From Flavobacterium sp. TR2 (GTDB lineage Bacteria > Bacteroidota > Bacteroidia > Flavobacteriales > Flavobacteriaceae): a stretch of 64,000 nt of DNA. How positions within the stretch are numbered: position 1 is the first letter of the stretch; every line of letters begins with the position of its first letter. The position numbers and the translations under genes were made by a program. Positions 36,494 through 43,542 of the stretch are shown one piece after another. The notes beneath the pieces are model-generated. The model searched no databases. It was not told where the DNA came from and saw only the letters and a program-made list of their open reading frames with translations. The DNA is taken from assembly GCF_025252405.1 (NCBI RefSeq), contig NZ_CP104307.1, positions 2,852,001-2,916,000 on the forward strand, read 5' to 3'.

Positions 36494-37783
36494 TTACCCT
36501 AGGAAATCCTTCAACTCCTCATAAGTCTTAATCTTCACACTAACTTTCTCCTCATTAATAACACTCTCGATTTGAGCAGGAATCGGAAGCGTAATTCCTA
36601 AAGCAGATTCAACCACATCTAAGAATTTAATAGGATGTGCTGTTTCTAAGAAAATACCAATGGCGTTAGGGTGTTTTTCAAGCTCTTTTTTCAAACCTAA
36701 ATAACCAACAGCACCGTGTGGTTCTGCGATATAACCGTCTGTGTTATAAATTTTCTTTAGAGCAACTAATGTTTCTTCATCAGTATAGCTATAAGAAGAG
36801 AAGTCTTTTTCGAAAGCTTTTAAGTCATTATTGTACAATTCCTGAATTCTAATAAAGTTGCTTGGATTTCCAACGTCCATGGCGTTAGAGATGGTCGCTT
36901 TAGAAGGTTTTGGGTCGTATTTTCCGTTTTCTAAGAATCTTGGCACCGTGTCGTTTACGTTGGTAGACGCTACAAAATGCTCAATTGGCAAACCTAATTT
37001 TTTTGCCATAATTCCGGCACAGATATTCCCAAAGTTTCCGCTTGGGCAAGAGAAAACTAAAGGTTTGTTTTGGCTTTTCAAGGCTTTGTATGCAAAGAAG
37101 AAATAAAACATTTGCGGTAACCAACGTGCAATATTAATCGAGTTTGCAGAAGTCAGGTTTTTATGCGCCAGAGTTTCATCTAAAAACGCTTTTTTCACCA
37201 TATCCTGACAATCGTCAAAAACACCGTCAACTTCTAGCGCTTTAATGTTTTGCCCTAAAGTTGTCAATTGCTTTTCCTGAATGTCGCTCACTTTTCCTGA
37301 CGGATATAAAATGACAACATCAACGCCGTCAACGCCTAAAAATCCGCTCGCAACAGCTCCGCCTGTATCACCAGAAGTAGCTACTAAAACAGTATTTTTA
37401 GAATCTTTTTTGTCTTTATTGAAATAACCTAAACAACGTGACATAAAACGCGCTCCAACGTCTTTAAAAGCCATTGTCGGACCGTGAAATAACTCTAACG
37501 AATAGATTCCGTTTTCGACTTTCACAACCGGAAAATCAAAAACTAAAGTTTCGGCAATAATTTCTTTTAGTTTTTCTGCCGGGATTTCGTCGCCAACAAA
37601 TTGTTTAATCGCTTCAAAAGCAATTTCTTCGTGGCTTAAACCTTCGATTTTATCAAAAAATGACGGATCAAGCGGTGTTATGCTTTCTGGGAAATATAAT
37701 CCTTTGTCAGTTGCTAATCCTTGTATAACAGCTTCCTGAAAAGAAACTTTTGGGGCATTATGGTTTAAACTGTAGTATTTCAT
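36494..37783 (-). CDS. thrC: threonine synthase
   Basis: PLP enzyme converting O-phosphohomoserine to threonine, last step of the pathway. 429 residues, the proteobacterial/yeast-type length. Signatures: MKYYSLNHNAPKVSFQEAVIQGLATDKGLYFPE, the PLP lysine in HGPTMAFKDVGARFM, NTVLVATSGDTGGAVASGF, LTSANSINIARWLPQMFYFF and SCPSGNFGNICAG. Third gene of thrA-thrB-thrC. The 150-base gap after thrB contains AAGCTTTAGGCTTTAGGC-type phrases and an inverse copy, so some read-through control is possible. Confidence 0.96.
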   Translation of the reverse strand: MKYYSLNHNAPKVSFQEAVIQGLATDKGLYFPESITPLDPSFFDKIEGLSHEEIAFEAIKQFVGDEIPAEKLKEIIAETLVFDFPVVKVENGIYSLELFHGPTMAFKDVGARFMSRCLGYFNKDKKDSKNTVLVATSGDTGGAVASGFLGVDGVDVVILYPSGKVSDIQEKQLTTLGQNIKALEVDGVFDDCQDMVKKAFLDETLAHKNLTSANSINIARWLPQMFYFFFAYKALKSQNKPLVFSCPSGNFGNICAGIMAKKLGLPIEHFVASTNVNDTVPRFLENGKYDPKPSKATISNAMDVGNPSNFIRIQELYNNDLKAFEKDFSSYSYTDEETLVALKKIYNTDGYIAEPHGAVGYLGLKKELEKHPNAIGIFLETAHPIKFLDVVESALGITLPIPAQIESVINEEKVSVKIKTYEELKDFLG

Positions 37784-37933: not shown

Positions 37934-38854
37934 CTAAAGCACGCGGACACCATCAGGATTAATCTTCGAAACATGAATTTCATACGGTAAATTCATTTTT
38001 TCGTAAACGTCGCTCATGGCTTTTGCGATTTTTTCAGCGGTTTCTTTTCCTCTGCTTAAAGCGAAAATAGATGGGCCGGAACCTGAAATTCCAGAACCTA
38101 AAGCGCCGTTTTCATAAGCCGTTTGTTTAATTTGATCGAAACCTGGAATCAATACACTTCTTAAAGGCTCTACGATTTCGTCATGAAGCGAACGTCCGAT
38201 CAATTCGTAATCTTTGGTGTAAAGTCCTGCGACCAATCCGCCTACGTTACCCCATTGCATGATGGCGCTTTTTAGGGAAACGTTTTGTTTTAAAACCGAA
38301 CGAGCGTCAGAAGTTTTCAATTCAATTTGCGGATGAACCACCGTTGCGTACAATTCTTCTGGGCTGTCAATTCTGATAATATCAAGCGGCGAGTAACTTC
38401 TTACCAACGTAAATCCGCCCAAAAGGGCAGGGGCAACGTTGTCGGCGTGAGCGTTTCCGCTGGCTAATTTCTCGCCCTGCATTGCAAATTGAACCAAATC
38501 TTTACGAGAATAAGGTCTTCCTAATAATTCATTTATTCCGAAAACCGCTCCGGCAGAACTTGCAGCACTGCTTCCGATTCCGCTTCCGGCTTTGATGTTT
38601 TTGTAAATTTCGATTTCAAATCCGAAATCCAATTCATCTAAAGTAGCCAACATGGCCAAAGCCGCAACCCCGGAAACGTTTTTCTCGGTTTCCAAAGGTA
38701 AATCGGCACCGACAATTTTAGTGATTCGAACTCCTTTTTGATCGACTTTTCGAACAATCATTTCATCGCCCGCATTGTCTAAGCAAAGTCCCAAGACGTC
38801 AAATCCGCATGAGAGGTTGGCGATTGTAGCGGGACAGAATAATTTTATTTCCAT
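37934..38854 (-). CDS. thrB: homoserine kinase
   Basis: GHMP kinase phosphorylating homoserine. 306 residues. Motif 1 PATIANLSCGFDVLGLCLD, motif 2 with the ATP loop IKAGSGIGSSAASSAGAVFGIN, motif 3 ENGALGSGISGSGPSIFALS. Second gene of the thr operon, 159 bases after thrA; the gap contains three 16-base tandem repeats. Its stop codon lies inside a small hairpin CGTGCT-AA-AGCACG (37930-37943). Confidence 0.96.
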   Translation of the reverse strand: MEIKLFCPATIANLSCGFDVLGLCLDNAGDEMIVRKVDQKGVRITKIVGADLPLETEKNVSGVAALAMLATLDELDFGFEIEIYKNIKAGSGIGSSAASSAGAVFGINELLGRPYSRKDLVQFAMQGEKLASGNAHADNVAPALLGGFTLVRSYSPLDIIRIDSPEELYATVVHPQIELKTSDARSVLKQNVSLKSAIMQWGNVGGLVAGLYTKDYELIGRSLHDEIVEPLRSVLIPGFDQIKQTAYENGALGSGISGSGPSIFALSRGKETAEKIAKAMSDVYEKMNLPYEIHVSKINPDGVRVL

Positions 38855-38918: not shown

Positions 38919-38966
38919 AAGGTTCATAGTAGCAAAGGTTCATAGTAGCAAAGGTTCATAGTAGCA
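38919..38966. repeat. three tandem copies of a 16-bp unit between thrA and thrB
   Basis: Unit AAGGTTCATAGTAGCA at 38919-38934, 38935-38950 and 38951-38966, continuing into a partial fourth. Flanked by AAAGTGGCAAAGGCTCAGAGG and by CCCTTTGCACCTTTGACC, the two orientations of the same intergenic family. Inserted within an operon. Confidence 0.9.
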
Positions 38967-39013
38967 AAGGTTTTAACTTTGTCCCTTTGCACCTTTGACC
39001 CTTTGCACCTTTA

Positions 39014-41461
39014 CTAAATATTTCCTATTCTAATAACATCTGCAAAAATTCCTGATGCTGTAACAGCGGCTCCGGCGCCGGCTCCTTTGATCAATAAAGG
39101 CTGGTCTACGTAACGATCTGTGTAGAACAATACGATATTGTCTTTTCCTTCTAAATTATAGAAAGGATGATCTTTTGGAATGAACTGCAGGCCAACGCTA
39201 GCTTTTCCGTTTTCGAATTGCGCTACGTATTTCAATCTTGAATCTTTGGCTAAAGCTTCTTTATAAATGCCTTCAAAATGAGCAGCGTGTTTGATTAACG
39301 ATGCAAAAAAGTCGTCGTTGTTTGTGGTTGCTAAACATTCTGCTGGCAGGAACGATTCATTTGCAATAGCGTCAATATCCATTTCGTAACCGCTTTCGCG
39401 AATTAGAATTAGGATTTTACGGGCAACGTCGATTCCGCTTAAGTCGATTTTCGGATCTGGTTCTGTAAAACCTTGAACTCCCGCTTCTTTTACTACATCG
39501 TGGAAAGAATTATTCTCATCAAAATTGTTGAAAATAAAGTTCAGACTTCCAGACAAAACGGCTTGAATTTTATGCACTTTATCGCCAGAAGCAATTAAGT
39601 TTTTTACAGTGTCAATAATAGGTAATCCCGCACCAACATTCGTTTCAAACAAGAAAGGAGCGTTGTATTGGCGTGATAAGCTTTTTAATTTTTTATAGTT
39701 ATCGTAAGCAGATGAACAGGCAATTTTGTTGCAAGTCACAACCGCAATACTTTCTTTTAAGAATTTCTCGTAGGCTTCAGAAACCGTTGCATTTGCAGTG
39801 ATGTCTACGAAAATGCTGTTACGCAAATTCAGCTCTTTTGCTTTTTTGATAAATTCTTCAATGCTTGCCGGTTCGCCTTCGCTTAAAGCGGCATCCCAAT
39901 TTTTCAAAGAAATTCCGTCTTCGTCAAAAATCATTTTTCTTGAGTTAGACAAAGCAATTACACGAACATTGATCTTTAAATTATCTTTTAAGAACTTTCT
40001 TTGATTGTGAATCTGCTCGATGAATTTTTCGCCCACATTTCCAACTCCCATTACAAATAAGTTGAGCTGTTTTGTGTTTTCTTCAAAGAAATTTTCGTGC
40101 AACGTATTCAATGCTTTTTTAACATCTCTTTCATTAATTACAGTCGAAATGTTTCTTTCAGAAGCGCCTTGCGCAATCGCACGTATGTTTACGTTGTTTT
40201 TTCCTAAAGTGCTGAACATTCTTCCGCTCAAGCCTTGGTGATTTTTCATGTTTTCACCCACCAAAGCAATAATGCAAAGGTCTTTTTCTACATAGCAAGG
40301 ATCGATTTTATTCTGCGAAATTTCGATTTCAAAAGCTCTATTTATTGCAGCTTCGGCATTATCAGCATCAGAATTTAGAATTCCGATACAGATTGAATGT
40401 TCAGAAGAAGCTTGAGTAATAAAAATAACATTGATTTTTTCTTGAGATAATACTTCAAATAATCTTCTTGATGAACCCGCAACACCAATCATTCCTGGAC
40501 CTTCAAGCGTTAAAAGCGAAATATGATCAATATGGCTGATTCCTTTTACAACTGTATCTTTTGAGGAAACCTGGCTAGAGATTAAAGTTCCTTCAGCTTC
40601 TGGCTCAAAAGTGTTTTTAATTAAAATTGGAATGTTTTTTCTTAAAACGGGTTGAATTGTTGGCGGATACAGCACTTTTGCTCCAAAATGCGACAATTCC
40701 ATCGCTTCTTGGTAAGAAATAGTAGCAATTGGCTGTGCTTGTTTTACAATTTTCGGATTTGCAGTAAACATTCCGTTTACGTCTGTCCAAATTTCCAATT
40801 GTTCTGCATCGATTGCTCCAGCGATAATTGCAGCAGTATAATCGGAACCGCCTCGTCCTAAAGTCGAAGTAATTCCGTCTAAAGTCTGTGCGATAAAACC
40901 GGGCATAATATTGATTTTTGCCTTGTTTTCAGCAAAGTAATCTTTAATCAGCTGATTTGAAACTTCGAAGTTTACAGTTGCTTTTCCAAAGTTATTATCC
41001 GTTTTGATTAATTCGCGGCTGTCTTTGTAAACCGCATCTTTGCTAATCTGCTGATAAGCTTGCGCGATGATAAATGAAGAAAGCAATTCTCCGAAACTTA
41101 AAATGGTATCGGCAGTTCTTGGAGACAATTCTCCTAAAAGAAAACAGCCGTCCAATAAAGTTTCTAAGTGATTGATGATTCTTTTTACATGGCTTAGCAA
41201 ACTGCTTTGCTCGCTAACCGGAATCAGTTCTTTAAGTGTATCAAGGTGTTTTTTCTCGATTTCGGCAACAACTTCTCTAAAGCTTTCGTCGTTTGATGCC
41301 GCTTTTGCTGCTGCCAATTGCAGTAAATCAGTTACTTTGCTTAATGCAGAAACCACAACCACAAGCTGGTCCTGTTTTGCTTTTTGGTTAACAATGTCGA
41401 GAACGAGTTTTATATTTTGAGCATTGGCTACTGAAGTTCCGCCAAATTTTAATACTTTCAT
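39014..41461 (-). CDS. thrA: bifunctional aspartate kinase / homoserine dehydrogenase I
   Basis: First and third steps from aspartate to threonine in one 815-residue protein, the E. coli ThrA length. The kinase domain (about 1-290) starts MKVLKFGGTSVANAQNIK and contains GFIAQTLDGITSTLGRGGSDYTAAIIA. Two ACT regulatory domains follow (about 305-455; SLLTLEGPGMIGVAGSSRRLFEVL and ICIIALVGENMKNHQGLSGRMFSTLG). The homoserine dehydrogenase domain begins LNLFVMGVGNVGEKFIEQI and has the substrate site VLSGSLNFIFNN and EPDPKIDLSGIDVARKILIL. It is preceded by the thr leader peptide and hairpin (41564-41673), so expression is probably set by attenuation and activity by threonine binding to ACT. Confidence 0.97.
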   Translation of the reverse strand: MKVLKFGGTSVANAQNIKLVLDIVNQKAKQDQLVVVVSALSKVTDLLQLAAAKAASNDESFREVVAEIEKKHLDTLKELIPVSEQSSLLSHVKRIINHLETLLDGCFLLGELSPRTADTILSFGELLSSFIIAQAYQQISKDAVYKDSRELIKTDNNFGKATVNFEVSNQLIKDYFAENKAKINIMPGFIAQTLDGITSTLGRGGSDYTAAIIAGAIDAEQLEIWTDVNGMFTANPKIVKQAQPIATISYQEAMELSHFGAKVLYPPTIQPVLRKNIPILIKNTFEPEAEGTLISSQVSSKDTVVKGISHIDHISLLTLEGPGMIGVAGSSRRLFEVLSQEKINVIFITQASSEHSICIGILNSDADNAEAAINRAFEIEISQNKIDPCYVEKDLCIIALVGENMKNHQGLSGRMFSTLGKNNVNIRAIAQGASERNISTVINERDVKKALNTLHENFFEENTKQLNLFVMGVGNVGEKFIEQIHNQRKFLKDNLKINVRVIALSNSRKMIFDEDGISLKNWDAALSEGEPASIEEFIKKAKELNLRNSIFVDITANATVSEAYEKFLKESIAVVTCNKIACSSAYDNYKKLKSLSRQYNAPFLFETNVGAGLPIIDTVKNLIASGDKVHKIQAVLSGSLNFIFNNFDENNSFHDVVKEAGVQGFTEPDPKIDLSGIDVARKILILIRESGYEMDIDAIANESFLPAECLATTNNDDFFASLIKHAAHFEGIYKEALAKDSRLKYVAQFENGKASVGLQFIPKDHPFYNLEGKDNIVLFYTDRYVDQPLLIKGAGAGAAVTASGIFADVIRIGNI

Positions 41462-41563
41462 TTTATGATATTTTTCTTTTTTGCAACTATTTTTTATGTA
41501 TTCATTACCTTTCTTCTTTTTAGAAAAAAAGTATATGCGAACTGGATTATATGTAAAAATGTA

Positions 41564-41578
41564 TACCCCTAAGGGGTA
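41564..41578 (-). terminator. thr attenuator hairpin
   Basis: 6-bp GC-rich stem TACCCC / GGGGTA (41564-41569, 41573-41578) with a 3-base loop. The leader stop codon lies in the loop region, and on the minus strand a T5 run follows at 41559-41555. A ribosome stalled on the Thr codons just before it would cover the 5' arm. The stem is short, so it may be part of a larger alternative structure. Confidence 0.5.
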
Positions 41579-41673
41579 GTAGTTGTTGTAGTAGAAATAA
41601 TGGTAGCAGCAATTGCAACTCCTGTTTGAGCTGTAATAATGGTAGATTGATATTTTATGCTGTTACTTTTCAT
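41569..41673 (-). CDS. thrL: thr operon leader peptide
   Basis: 34-codon ORF (ATG at 41673, TAG at 41571-41569) located 107 bases before thrA. Its product has 10 Thr and 6 Ile, among them ATIISTTTTTTP at the end, with six consecutive Thr codons right before the stop. This is the composition of the E. coli threonine leader (Thr and Ile control), with unrelated sequence otherwise. TACTTTTG (41692-41685 on the minus strand) is a -7 promoter match just upstream. When charged tRNA-Thr or tRNA-Ile is scarce, ribosome stalling should favour read-through into thrABC. The ORF is seen; attenuation is inferred from established leader-peptide logic. Confidence 0.85.
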   Translation of the reverse strand: MKSNSIKYQSTIITAQTGVAIAATIISTTTTTTP

Positions 41674-42027
41674 TTTTGATTTTTCAAAAGTACAGCTTTT
41701 TATAAGAGTTAAAAACTTCAAAAGCTTTTTTGCGAATATTTTAATAATTCAAATCTCAATAATTCAATATTGAGTATTTGTTAAAATTGGATATGCTAAA
41801 TTGAGGTTTTAATAGATTTTGGACAGCGTTTTTTTGAGGTTTAGGCCATGCAAAAGATTGATGTTTAGTCCAAAAAGACATTAAAAGCGGATTAAAACAT
41901 AAAAAGAAGAGTAAATAGAGCGTTAAAATTGCTCAACTGGTTTTTGTTGAAATCTTAATTATTGTGATAAAATGTTGCTTTTTAATATTGATTTGTTGAA
42001 TTTTGGCGTTTAAAATTTAAAATCATC
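41674..42027. other. divergent region between thr leader and hutH
   Basis: 354 AT-rich bases without a further ORF. The thr promoter -7 box lies at its left edge. GTTG, 20 bases, then GAATTTTG (about 41973-42006) is a one-mismatch candidate promoter for hutH. Confidence 0.4.
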
Positions 42028-43542
42028 ATGAGAGAGATTCATTATATAAGTTCGGAAACCATCACTTTAGAAACATTACAGGAAATTTTAGGTCAGAATA
42101 AGATTCTTGAATTATCTGAAGAAGCTAAGTCAAATGTTCAGAAATGCCGTGATTATTTAGATAAGAAAATGGCATCTCATACGGCTCCAATTTATGGAAT
42201 CAATACAGGTTTTGGATCATTGTATAGTGTGAAGATCTCGAATGAAAATTTATCTAAACTTCAAGAAAACTTAGTAAAATCGCACGCTTGCGGAACGGGT
42301 GAAGAAGTTCCAGCGGACATTGTAAAGATGATGCTTTTACTGAAAATCCAATCTTTAAGTTATGGTCATTCTGGTGTTCAATTAAAAACACTGGAGCGTT
42401 TAGTTGATTTTTATAATAATGATATTCTGCCTATTATTTATACGCAAGGTTCGCTTGGAGCTTCAGGAGATTTAGCTCCTTTGGCACATTTGTCTTTGCC
42501 ATTAATAGGTGAGGGAATTGTGCTTTTTGAAGGAAAAAAAGTGGCTTCTGCTGAAGTTTTAAAGCATTTTAACTGGGAGCCAATTGTTTTGCAGTCAAAA
42601 GAAGGTTTGGCTTTGCTGAACGGAACTCAGTTTATGAGTGCATATGGAGCTCATATTTTAATTAAAGCATATAAATACTCGTATTTGGCAGATTTGATCG
42701 GAACTATTTCTATGGAAGGTTTTGATGGAAGAATCGAGCCATTCAACGAATTGATACATTATATACGTCCGCACAAAGGGCAAATCGTAACGGCACAAAG
42801 AATTACTGAATTCTTGGAAGGAAGCGAAATTATCGCTCAGGAAAAGAAACACGTTCAAGATCCGTACTCTTTCCGCTGTATGCCGCAGGTTCACGGAGCT
42901 TCAAAAGATGCGATTGATTATGTTAGAAAAGTATTTAAAACAGAAATCAATTCAGTGACTGATAATCCTAATATTTTTATTGAAGCCGATCAGATTATTT
43001 CTGGCGGAAATTTCCACGGACAGCCTTTAGCTTTAGCTTTAGATTTTATGGCAATTGCTTTGGCAGAATTAGGAAGCATTTCTGAAAGAAGAACCTATCA
43101 GTTAATTTCTGGTTTGCGTAATCTTCCGGCATTTTTGGTTGATAATCCGGGATTGAATTCTGGTTTTATGATTCCGCAATATACAGCAGCAAGTATTGCG
43201 AGCCAAAACAAACAATTGGCAACTCCTGCAAGTATTGATAGCATTGTTTCGAGTAACGGACAAGAAGATCACGTGAGCATGGGAGCCAATGGGGCAACAA
43301 AAGCCTTACGAATTTTGGATAATTTGGAGCGCATTTTAGCGATCGAATTGCTGAATGCTTCGCAGGCTATTGCTTACAGAGAGCCTCTAAAATCAAGCGA
43401 TTTTATTCAAATGTTCTTGAATAGCTACCGAGAAATGGTGCCTTTGGTGAAAGAAGACAGAATCTTACATAATGACATAGAAAACACGGTTTTATTCCTT
43501 TCGAGTTTTCAAATTGAAAACGATTTGTTAACAATGGCTTAA
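42028..43542 (+). CDS. hutH: histidine ammonia-lyase
   Basis: Deaminates histidine to urocanate, first step of histidine degradation. 504 residues. The self-forming MIO cofactor triad is Ala145-Ser146-Gly147 in GSLGASGDLAPLAHL. Other conserved blocks: YGINTGFGSLYSVKI, GTGEEVPADIV, NGTQFMSAYGAH, DPYSFRCMPQVHGASKDAI and SVTDNPNIF. hutU, hutI and hutG are not adjacent. The next gene starts 50 bases later but is a phosphate-transport accessory with its own -7 box, so hutH is probably a single-gene unit. Confidence 0.96.
   Translation: MREIHYISSETITLETLQEILGQNKILELSEEAKSNVQKCRDYLDKKMASHTAPIYGINTGFGSLYSVKISNENLSKLQENLVKSHACGTGEEVPADIVKMMLLLKIQSLSYGHSGVQLKTLERLVDFYNNDILPIIYTQGSLGASGDLAPLAHLSLPLIGEGIVLFEGKKVASAEVLKHFNWEPIVLQSKEGLALLNGTQFMSAYGAHILIKAYKYSYLADLIGTISMEGFDGRIEPFNELIHYIRPHKGQIVTAQRITEFLEGSEIIAQEKKHVQDPYSFRCMPQVHGASKDAIDYVRKVFKTEINSVTDNPNIFIEADQIISGGNFHGQPLALALDFMAIALAELGSISERRTYQLISGLRNLPAFLVDNPGLNSGFMIPQYTAASIASQNKQLATPASIDSIVSSNGQEDHVSMGANGATKALRILDNLERILAIELLNASQAIAYREPLKSSDFIQMFLNSYREMVPLVKEDRILHNDIENTVLFLSSFQIENDLLTMA

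Follow-up and report, generated by a model that had tools for sequence, protein, structure and literature searches.

We are confident, with few reservations, that thrA, thrB and thrC in the window (the whole stretch of 64,000 nucleotides analysed here) are preceded by a leader peptide rich in Thr and Ile, which is very probably a widely conserved amino-acid sensor. The best reading of the locus is a variant of leader-peptide attenuation in which a hairpin at the leader stop codon is masked by a stalled ribosome, and on balance we lean towards the fuller proposal that a Thr/Ile-sensing leader controls thrABC by means of this masking and of an unusual decision element. The genes, the leader and its putative promoter are arranged as follows.

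36494..37783, minus strand: thrC, threonine synthase (NCBIfam TIGR00260, above cut-off)
37934..38854, minus strand: thrB, homoserine kinase (NCBIfam TIGR00191 and NF002288, above cut-off)
39014..41461, minus strand: thrA, bifunctional aspartate kinase/homoserine dehydrogenase I (NCBIfam NF006959, 1062.8 bits for a cut-off of 726)
41569..41673, minus strand: leader peptide ORF of 34 aa, rich in Thr and Ile (from the sequence and comparative data)
41685..41692, minus strand: putative promoter -7 box TACTTTTG, of the Bacteroidota type TAnnTTTG, 11 nt before the leader ATG

The leader ORF extends over 34 codons from an ATG at 41673-41671 to a TAG at 41571-41569, and a gap of 107 bases separates it from the thrA ATG (41461). 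The encoded peptide, MKSNSIKYQSTIITAQTGVAIAATIISTTTTTTP, contains 10 Thr and 6 Ile. In these respects the initial annotation was accurate, and its identification of thrA-thrB-thrC agrees with the NCBIfam models for each of the three genes; it had, however, placed six Thr codons directly before the stop, and a Pro codon (CCT) intervenes between the six and the TAG. The Thr count of the leader is the highest among the 614 ORFs of the whole window (ATG-to-stop, 15-60 aa, nested starts included), the runner-up having 8, and a Thr-rich ORF at this place is not due to chance. No family of Pfam or NCBIfam matches the peptide at E <= 0.001, which for 34 aa is a weak test. The ThrA of the window genome (G000, 5.1 Mb) shares 98% identity with its counterparts in F. 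anhuiense and F. sharifuzzamanii, which places the genome in Flavobacterium or very close to it. Two further features of the neighborhood were observed. The gene hutH (histidine ammonia-lyase, above the NCBIfam cut-off; 42028-43542, plus strand) is divergent from the leader, at about 335 bp from the predicted promoter box, and the gap between thrB and thrA displays, at 38921-38968, three head-to-tail copies of GGTTCATAGTAGCAAA followed by repeats of the CCCTTTGCACCTTTGA type.

Upstream regions of thrA from other genomes were compared with that of the window. An ORF with at least 5 Thr and at least 20% Thr was found in 172 of 287 such regions (284 distinct sequences, a few genomes being present twice under different names), and in none of 24 hisG and none of 24 pheA upstream regions. 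A hairpin of the type described below, together with Thr/Ile codons at a score of at least 3.5, was found in 227 of the 287, with 51 dropped for having no hairpin and 9 for a low score; four of the 227 had no ATG leader by the rule used, which left 223 leaders. When a fixed criterion of hairpin plus Thr/Ile codons was applied, Thr/Ile codons running into the stop hairpin were detected in 113 of 149 Flavobacteriaceae thrA loci and absent from 36; 158 genomes of the family, G000 included, had a match, and 8 were not taken in. By the same criterion the element is present in all 80 named close relatives and in 25 of 30 relatives, the five without it being L017, L024, L027, L029 and L030, of which the last has a thrA (39% identical) that may be a paralogue. 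In L016, L018 and L090 the reading frame extends well beyond the hairpin.

Codon differences were counted in 1566 pairs of related leaders, which are not independent because the species are related. In the last eight codons before the hairpin, 2738 of 3131 differences were synonymous or Thr-Ile swaps (1308 synonymous, 1430 Thr-Ile, 393 other), against 1881 of 7983 in the earlier codons (1724, 157 and 6102, respectively). The differences were distributed over codon positions 1, 2 and 3 as 9, 36 and 55% in the last eight codons and as 39, 27 and 34% in the earlier ones. Thus, coding for Thr and Ile is kept near the hairpin, while other residues drift. Among 180 distinct peptides the last 10 residues are 42.5% Thr and 15.9% Ile, and the remainder 15.5% and 9.5%. 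Two checks put forward in the initial annotation, namely that relatives should possess a Thr-rich ORF upstream of thrA and that its Thr codons should be conserved without conservation of other residues, were therefore both borne out by these counts.

The sequence TAnnTTTG is the consensus of the Bacteroidota -7 box. Of 223 leaders, 188 have it no more than 45 nt before their ATG, compared with an occurrence in 83 of 1362 background segments, and its commonest distance to the ATG, 11 nt (61 loci), equals that of the window locus. With a -7 box only 11 nt before the start codon, the thr leader mRNA is therefore predicted to be nearly leaderless. A second promoter in the region farther downstream, which comprises the motif and second hairpin listed below, was considered and rejected, since TAnnTTTG-like strings are present there in some loci and, as judged by eye, are inconsistent. 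Mycobacterial cys leaders are reportedly called 'leaderless' in the title of Canestrari 2020.

At the end of the leader ORF and beyond it, towards thrA, the following features were identified.

41564..41578, minus strand: hp1, hairpin TACCCC-TTA-GGGGTA (6 pairs, loop of 3), which holds the leader stop codon
41555..41559, minus strand: degenerate five-base U-run after hp1, common in Flavobacterium and missing from most other genera
41544..41554, minus strand: motif ACATATAATCC (S4), apparently unpaired, conserved after hp1; a candidate pause/termination or factor site
41503..41537, minus strand: hp2, a second hairpin, A/U-rich here, predicted by the minimum free energy fold

The hairpin said to overlap the leader stop is indeed found: hp1 contains the TAG, and its 5' arm contains the last Thr codon (ACC) of the leader. 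Compared with 200 dinucleotide shuffles, the 223-nt leader RNA has a fold that is 4.25 sd better and is equalled by none of them. A search of Rfam returned no family above its gathering score in the window, and at 41400-41800 just two matches at chance level (E 4.2 and 4.9). Among the 223 leaders, the stop starts within the hairpin in 151 and at most 12 nt after it in 61 more, and the ACC of the arm is in frame 0 with the leader in 135 of 142. The outermost pair of hp1 is paired in 86 of 141 representatives (mean of 63.8 and maximum of 83 in 2000 shuffles) and, outside Flavobacterium, in 65 of 114, a value matched by the top of 2000 shuffles; farther outward, the following two pairs do not exceed chance, with 50 against 50.7 and 35 against 35.1 expected. 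Because the ACCC/GGG core is almost invariant within the family, the covariation comes from this one outer pair, and a DNA palindrome would give a similar pattern of conservation. Other families have a stop hairpin with exchanged arms (ACGGGGTGACCCGT, L317 of family f30) or with a different stem (CATGCCC-TAA-GGGGCATG, family f80), and the retention of such hairpins over the stop suggests that structure matters. It is on the outermost pair, the exchanged f30 arms and the altered stems elsewhere that we regard hp1 as a probable RNA stem. A ribosome footprint reaches about 12 nt beyond the A site; with this length, 139 of 143 leaders have at least one Thr codon at which a stalled ribosome would extend to hp1 (mean of 3.1).

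The motif downstream of hp1 reads ACATAT..TC in Flavobacterium. Of 152 loci, 118 have ATAT..TC no farther than 34 nt past hp1, whereas mononucleotide shuffles gave 30.3 on average and 47 at most; as controls, the following 34 nt had it in 16 of the 152 and a stretch far upstream in 8. The ATAT starts 5-12 nt past the hp1 stem in 105 of the 113 representatives bearing the motif. By simple geometry, the position of RNA polymerase as hp1 emerges would be approximately that of the ATAT motif.

From the ORF, its codon conservation, the position of the promoter box, hp1 over the stop, the motif and the lack, in most loci, of a canonical terminator, we propose the following course for transcription start, translation, masking and termination. 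The transcript would begin a few bases ahead of the leader ATG, with RNA polymerase trailed by the first ribosome. A shortage of charged tRNA-Thr or tRNA-Ile would make this ribosome stall on the Thr/Ile codons running into hp1 and cover the 5' arm; hp1 would stay unfolded and RNA polymerase would proceed into thrABC. When Thr and Ile are plentiful, the ribosome would reach the stop in or beside hp1 and leave, allowing hp1 to fold close behind an RNA polymerase positioned over ATAT..TC, at 5-12 nt downstream, where transcription would be arrested or ended. As there is no proper U-run, its part is presumably played by the motif, by a factor (Rho, NusA/NusG) or by both, and a non-canonical transcription stop at the thr leader is likely. 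A ribosome at the stop would also mask hp1, so that the OFF state would need a fast release or a pause of RNA polymerase; a pause at the motif, giving time for the release of the ribosome, would resolve this masking and explain the motif. More tentatively, flavobacteria and some other Bacteroidota may possess a separate class of attenuator, with a small hairpin around the leader stop, an ATAT..TC holding RNA polymerase until the ribosome stalls on Thr codons or is released, and factor-dependent termination without a U-tract.

The main rival explanation is Rho-dependent attenuation resembling that of tnaC, in which the G-poor stretch after hp1, with more C than G, would serve as the place where Rho loads: this place would be shielded as long as a ribosome is stalled near the stop, and release of that ribosome would expose it and allow Rho to terminate transcription before thrA. 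E. coli tnaC senses free tryptophan through the nascent peptide; the thr leader would be like it in that the adjacent downstream stretch becomes accessible or not according to where the ribosome stands at the stop of the leader, and unlike it in that the signal would be codon supply. In favor of Rho, the 50 nt after hp1 in other genera have a C/G of 1.93, with C above G in 111 of 119 representatives, while upstream of the leader promoter C/G is just 0.83 and C exceeds G in 35 of 113; the comparators as a whole range from 0.72 to 1.46. Nevertheless, this bias is not specific, because the leader ORF (C/G 1.46, 105 of 115) and the stretches after his terminators (C/G 1.42; 16 of 24 loci measured) also contain more C than G, and it is weaker in Flavobacterium (C/G 1.63, C above G in 26 of 28). 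Moreover, a Rho site would presumably need neither a short conserved motif nor a fixed hairpin. For the terminator-less mycobacterial cys leaders, the available part of one report offers Rho-dependent termination as one possibility (PMC1262725). All in all, we consider Rho loading after hp1 rather unlikely at the thr leader.

Doubtful to a greater degree is an ordinary intrinsic attenuator, in which hp1 and the five-base U-run would form a weak terminator blocked by a ribosome on the Thr codons. At least 5 U in 8 nt near the stem are present in 91 of 107 Flavobacterium hp1, and a consensus scan picks up the hp1 site; at least 6 U, in contrast, were found in just 3 of 107 and, outside the genus, in 9 of 120, and for 71 of 93 in other genera no T run within the 12 bases that follow the stem is longer than 1-2. 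The U-run that had been claimed after the hairpin exists in the window as five U, but it begins four bases past the hp1 stem and is degenerate. The median hp1 has -7.2 kcal/mol and 4 U in 8 nt (23 of 24 genomes compared), whereas the medians of the terminators in the same genomes are -15.7 kcal/mol for his and -11.4 kcal/mol for phe. When the best-scoring terminator-like hairpin between hp1 and thrA was taken, at least 6 U of 8 were found in 0 of 23 genomes, and for hp1 itself in 1 of 23. The same search, over 230 nt for hisG, 190 for pheA and 300 for the thr leaders of another order, that of G335, found at least 6 U of 8 in 23 of 24 hisG leaders, 21 of 24 pheA leaders and 25 of 27 thr loci (L363-L389; median of -19.4 kcal/mol). 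In addition, hp1 overlaps the stop, and attenuation usually needs a terminator outside the mRNA covered by the ribosome, as stated in the consulted part of PMC4833913.

The logic of enterobacterial thrL, which the initial annotation had attributed to the locus, is consequently supported for the Thr/Ile leader peptide and unsupported for the terminator half, where a weak hairpin lies over the stop and the U-run is poor. In thrL/thrABC of enterobacteria, the leader peptide is rich in Thr and Ile and ribosome stalling acts as the sensor. The flavobacterial leader is similar in that an ORF rich in Thr/Ile codons is predicted to open the thrABC transcript, with ribosome stalling as the proposed sensor, and differs from thrL in its peptide without Pfam/NCBIfam match, its hairpin over the stop codon, and the lack of a U-run terminator after the stop and of an antiterminator in the pairings tested. 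A short Thr/Ile ORF with conserved regulatory codons does precede thrABC; a GC-rich terminator hairpin with a direct U-tract was not found, nor was a terminator beyond the mRNA that a ribosome at this stop would cover, and a thrL-type terminator is not supported by these comparisons.

Likewise, the mutually exclusive hairpins that the initial annotation had proposed to look for did not emerge, as two antiterminator pairings failed or were at best weak. Duplexes between leader and downstream sequence were compared with those of swapped partners in 147 representatives, and of 16 combinations three had z -2.1 to -2.5; these were among the four with leader -70..-45, and the others held nothing in favor of pairing. 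Given 16 tests such values are unconvincing, and they do not support an antiterminator of this kind. Nor is there support for a duplex between the motif and the 3' arm of hp1, which was no better than shuffles in other genera (z +2.8), with z -1.2 in Flavobacterium. In L336 and L337 (family f64) a GGGCTGC after the leader stop could, as seen by eye, pair with a downstream GCAGCCC.

Slightly less probable again than an intrinsic attenuator is post-transcriptional control, in which the leader would set the translation of thrA or the stability of the mRNA and not transcription. The hairpin hp2 sits between the motif and thrA, and its counterpart in an alignment of other genera (A2; 26 of the 27 of its own group plus 3 from the rest group) has 4 pairs changed on both sides. 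A consensus hp2 was not found in the alignments A1 (27 of 28 Flavobacterium representatives) or A3 (23 of 30); a further alignment, A4, comprised 57 of 66 listed, and the list of 66 left out L317, L323 and L324 (exchanged arms) as well as L144, L250, L158, L229, L235 and L121. The term translation attenuation has been used for mycobacterial cysteine leaders (PMC13236596, in the part available). In Flavobacterium, on the other hand, hp1 and thrA lie 79-189 nt apart (about 100 or about 180), in other genera 51-255 nt, and so variable a spacing argues against pairing with, or control at, the thrA start. In L003 and L004, which have the long form, an extra stretch with CCTTTGAACCTTTG is located between hp2 and thrA. 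Lastly, the near-perfect palindrome TACCCCTTAGGGGTA, with its almost invariant core, is most improbably a DNA operator at which a repressor blocks transcription downstream of the promoter, since the ACC of its arm is kept in frame with the leader (135 of 142), the outer pair is G-T in 9 of 141 representatives, which suits RNA better than a DNA palindrome, and the exchanged arms and altered stems of other families stay over the stop.

Returning to the stop-codon hairpin and its proposed masking by a stalled ribosome, we note that the element formed by hairpin and motif appears to be confined to thr among the genomes searched. When codons, hp1 and motif were combined in an RNA model and up to 150 candidates were scored per genome, the thrA leader was the best match in 16 of 17 genomes, the next best match of any kind having an E of 0.033; 9 of the 16 leaders found were outside the training set, and one leader of that set, from G139, was missed. 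The pattern GGGGN{5,14}ACATATNATC has a single match in G000, the thrA leader, and over 40 genomes 14 of its 20 matches are thrA leaders and 6 lie elsewhere, the reversed control pattern giving 7. Use of the element by other genes was rejected; the RNA model gave no other match below E 0.03 in the 17 genomes.

Outside the family, architectures were sorted by eye. Stop-hairpin elements are present in some loci of families f81 (CAACCCTTTAGGGGGTTG..CACATATTATC), f80, f27, f28 and f50; in f30 the arms of the element are exchanged. Many loci in these groups display no element. In a set of 27 loci, U-run thr leaders were recognized by eye in L318, L319, L320, L328 and L331, and 8 of the 27 satisfied the hairpin criterion. 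Among the 26 loci L336-L361, likewise read by eye, a stop-codon hairpin is found in L338, L340, L349, L350 and L353, three loci are doubtful (L336, L337 and L346) and the remaining 18 have neither architecture. In the order of G335, represented by one family (f55), thr leaders such as MTINNTIITTIITTGIKDGGR are found. This order is in the same class of Bacteroidota, and its leaders are like the flavobacterial ones in having a Thr/Ile leader peptide before thrA; unlike them, many carry GGAGGAAG, which is complementary to CTTCCTCC of a strong U-run terminator. In L362, also of f55, ThrA is 58% identical to that of the window and a flavobacterial stop-codon hairpin lies upstream, which suggests that the thr operon and its leader were transferred together.

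Other amino-acid operons of the window genome have leaders of a different construction. The hisG leader (L261) has MISIQLHHHHLHYCSQAMC followed by a strong U-run terminator, the pheA leader (L285) has a peptide of the FYFFF type and a U-run terminator, and the ilvD leader (L419), as read by eye, has the Ile/Val-rich MQISIIITSVVVVNVIHTSASGML and a U-run terminator. The thr leader is like these his, phe and ilv leaders in that a leader peptide would control an amino-acid operon in the same genomes, and unlike them in that they possess U-run terminators. Vitreschak 2004 and Lopatovskaya 2010 are said to be comparative surveys of attenuators and may cover Bacteroidetes. Attenuation by leader peptides has been described for flavobacteria before, so that neither the kind of control nor the phylum is new: besides the U-run his, phe and ilv leaders of G000, the available text on F. 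psychrophilum describes strong clues for such attenuation upstream of amino-acid operons and mentions by name the 5' elements that precede pheA and hisG (PMC9723704), and that on Bacteroides thetaiotaomicron mentions short ORFs reminiscent of leader peptides (PMC7366714). The general mechanism is treated in PMC4833913 and PMC13236596, as far as their accessible parts go. In the literature searched, with subscription papers mostly outside its scope, we found no description of a thr leader in Bacteroidota, nor of a stop-codon hairpin without U-run combined with a fixed downstream motif. The mycobacterial cys leaders are similar in that the sensed amino acid is repeated close to the stop and a canonical terminator is missing; going by the portion of PMC1262725 available, they differ in the lack of a conserved hairpin, and they also concern another amino acid and another phylum.

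The leader peptide adds a gene product below the size of routine gene calling, and the locus offers a testable prediction of threonine control in a phylum which, judging from the literature searched, has few worked-out examples. Within one genome, the U-run terminators of the his, phe and ilv leaders can be contrasted with the stop-codon hairpin and conserved motif of the thr leader. If the motif does replace the U-run, this would point to a factor- or pause-dependent way of ending transcription in Bacteroidota.
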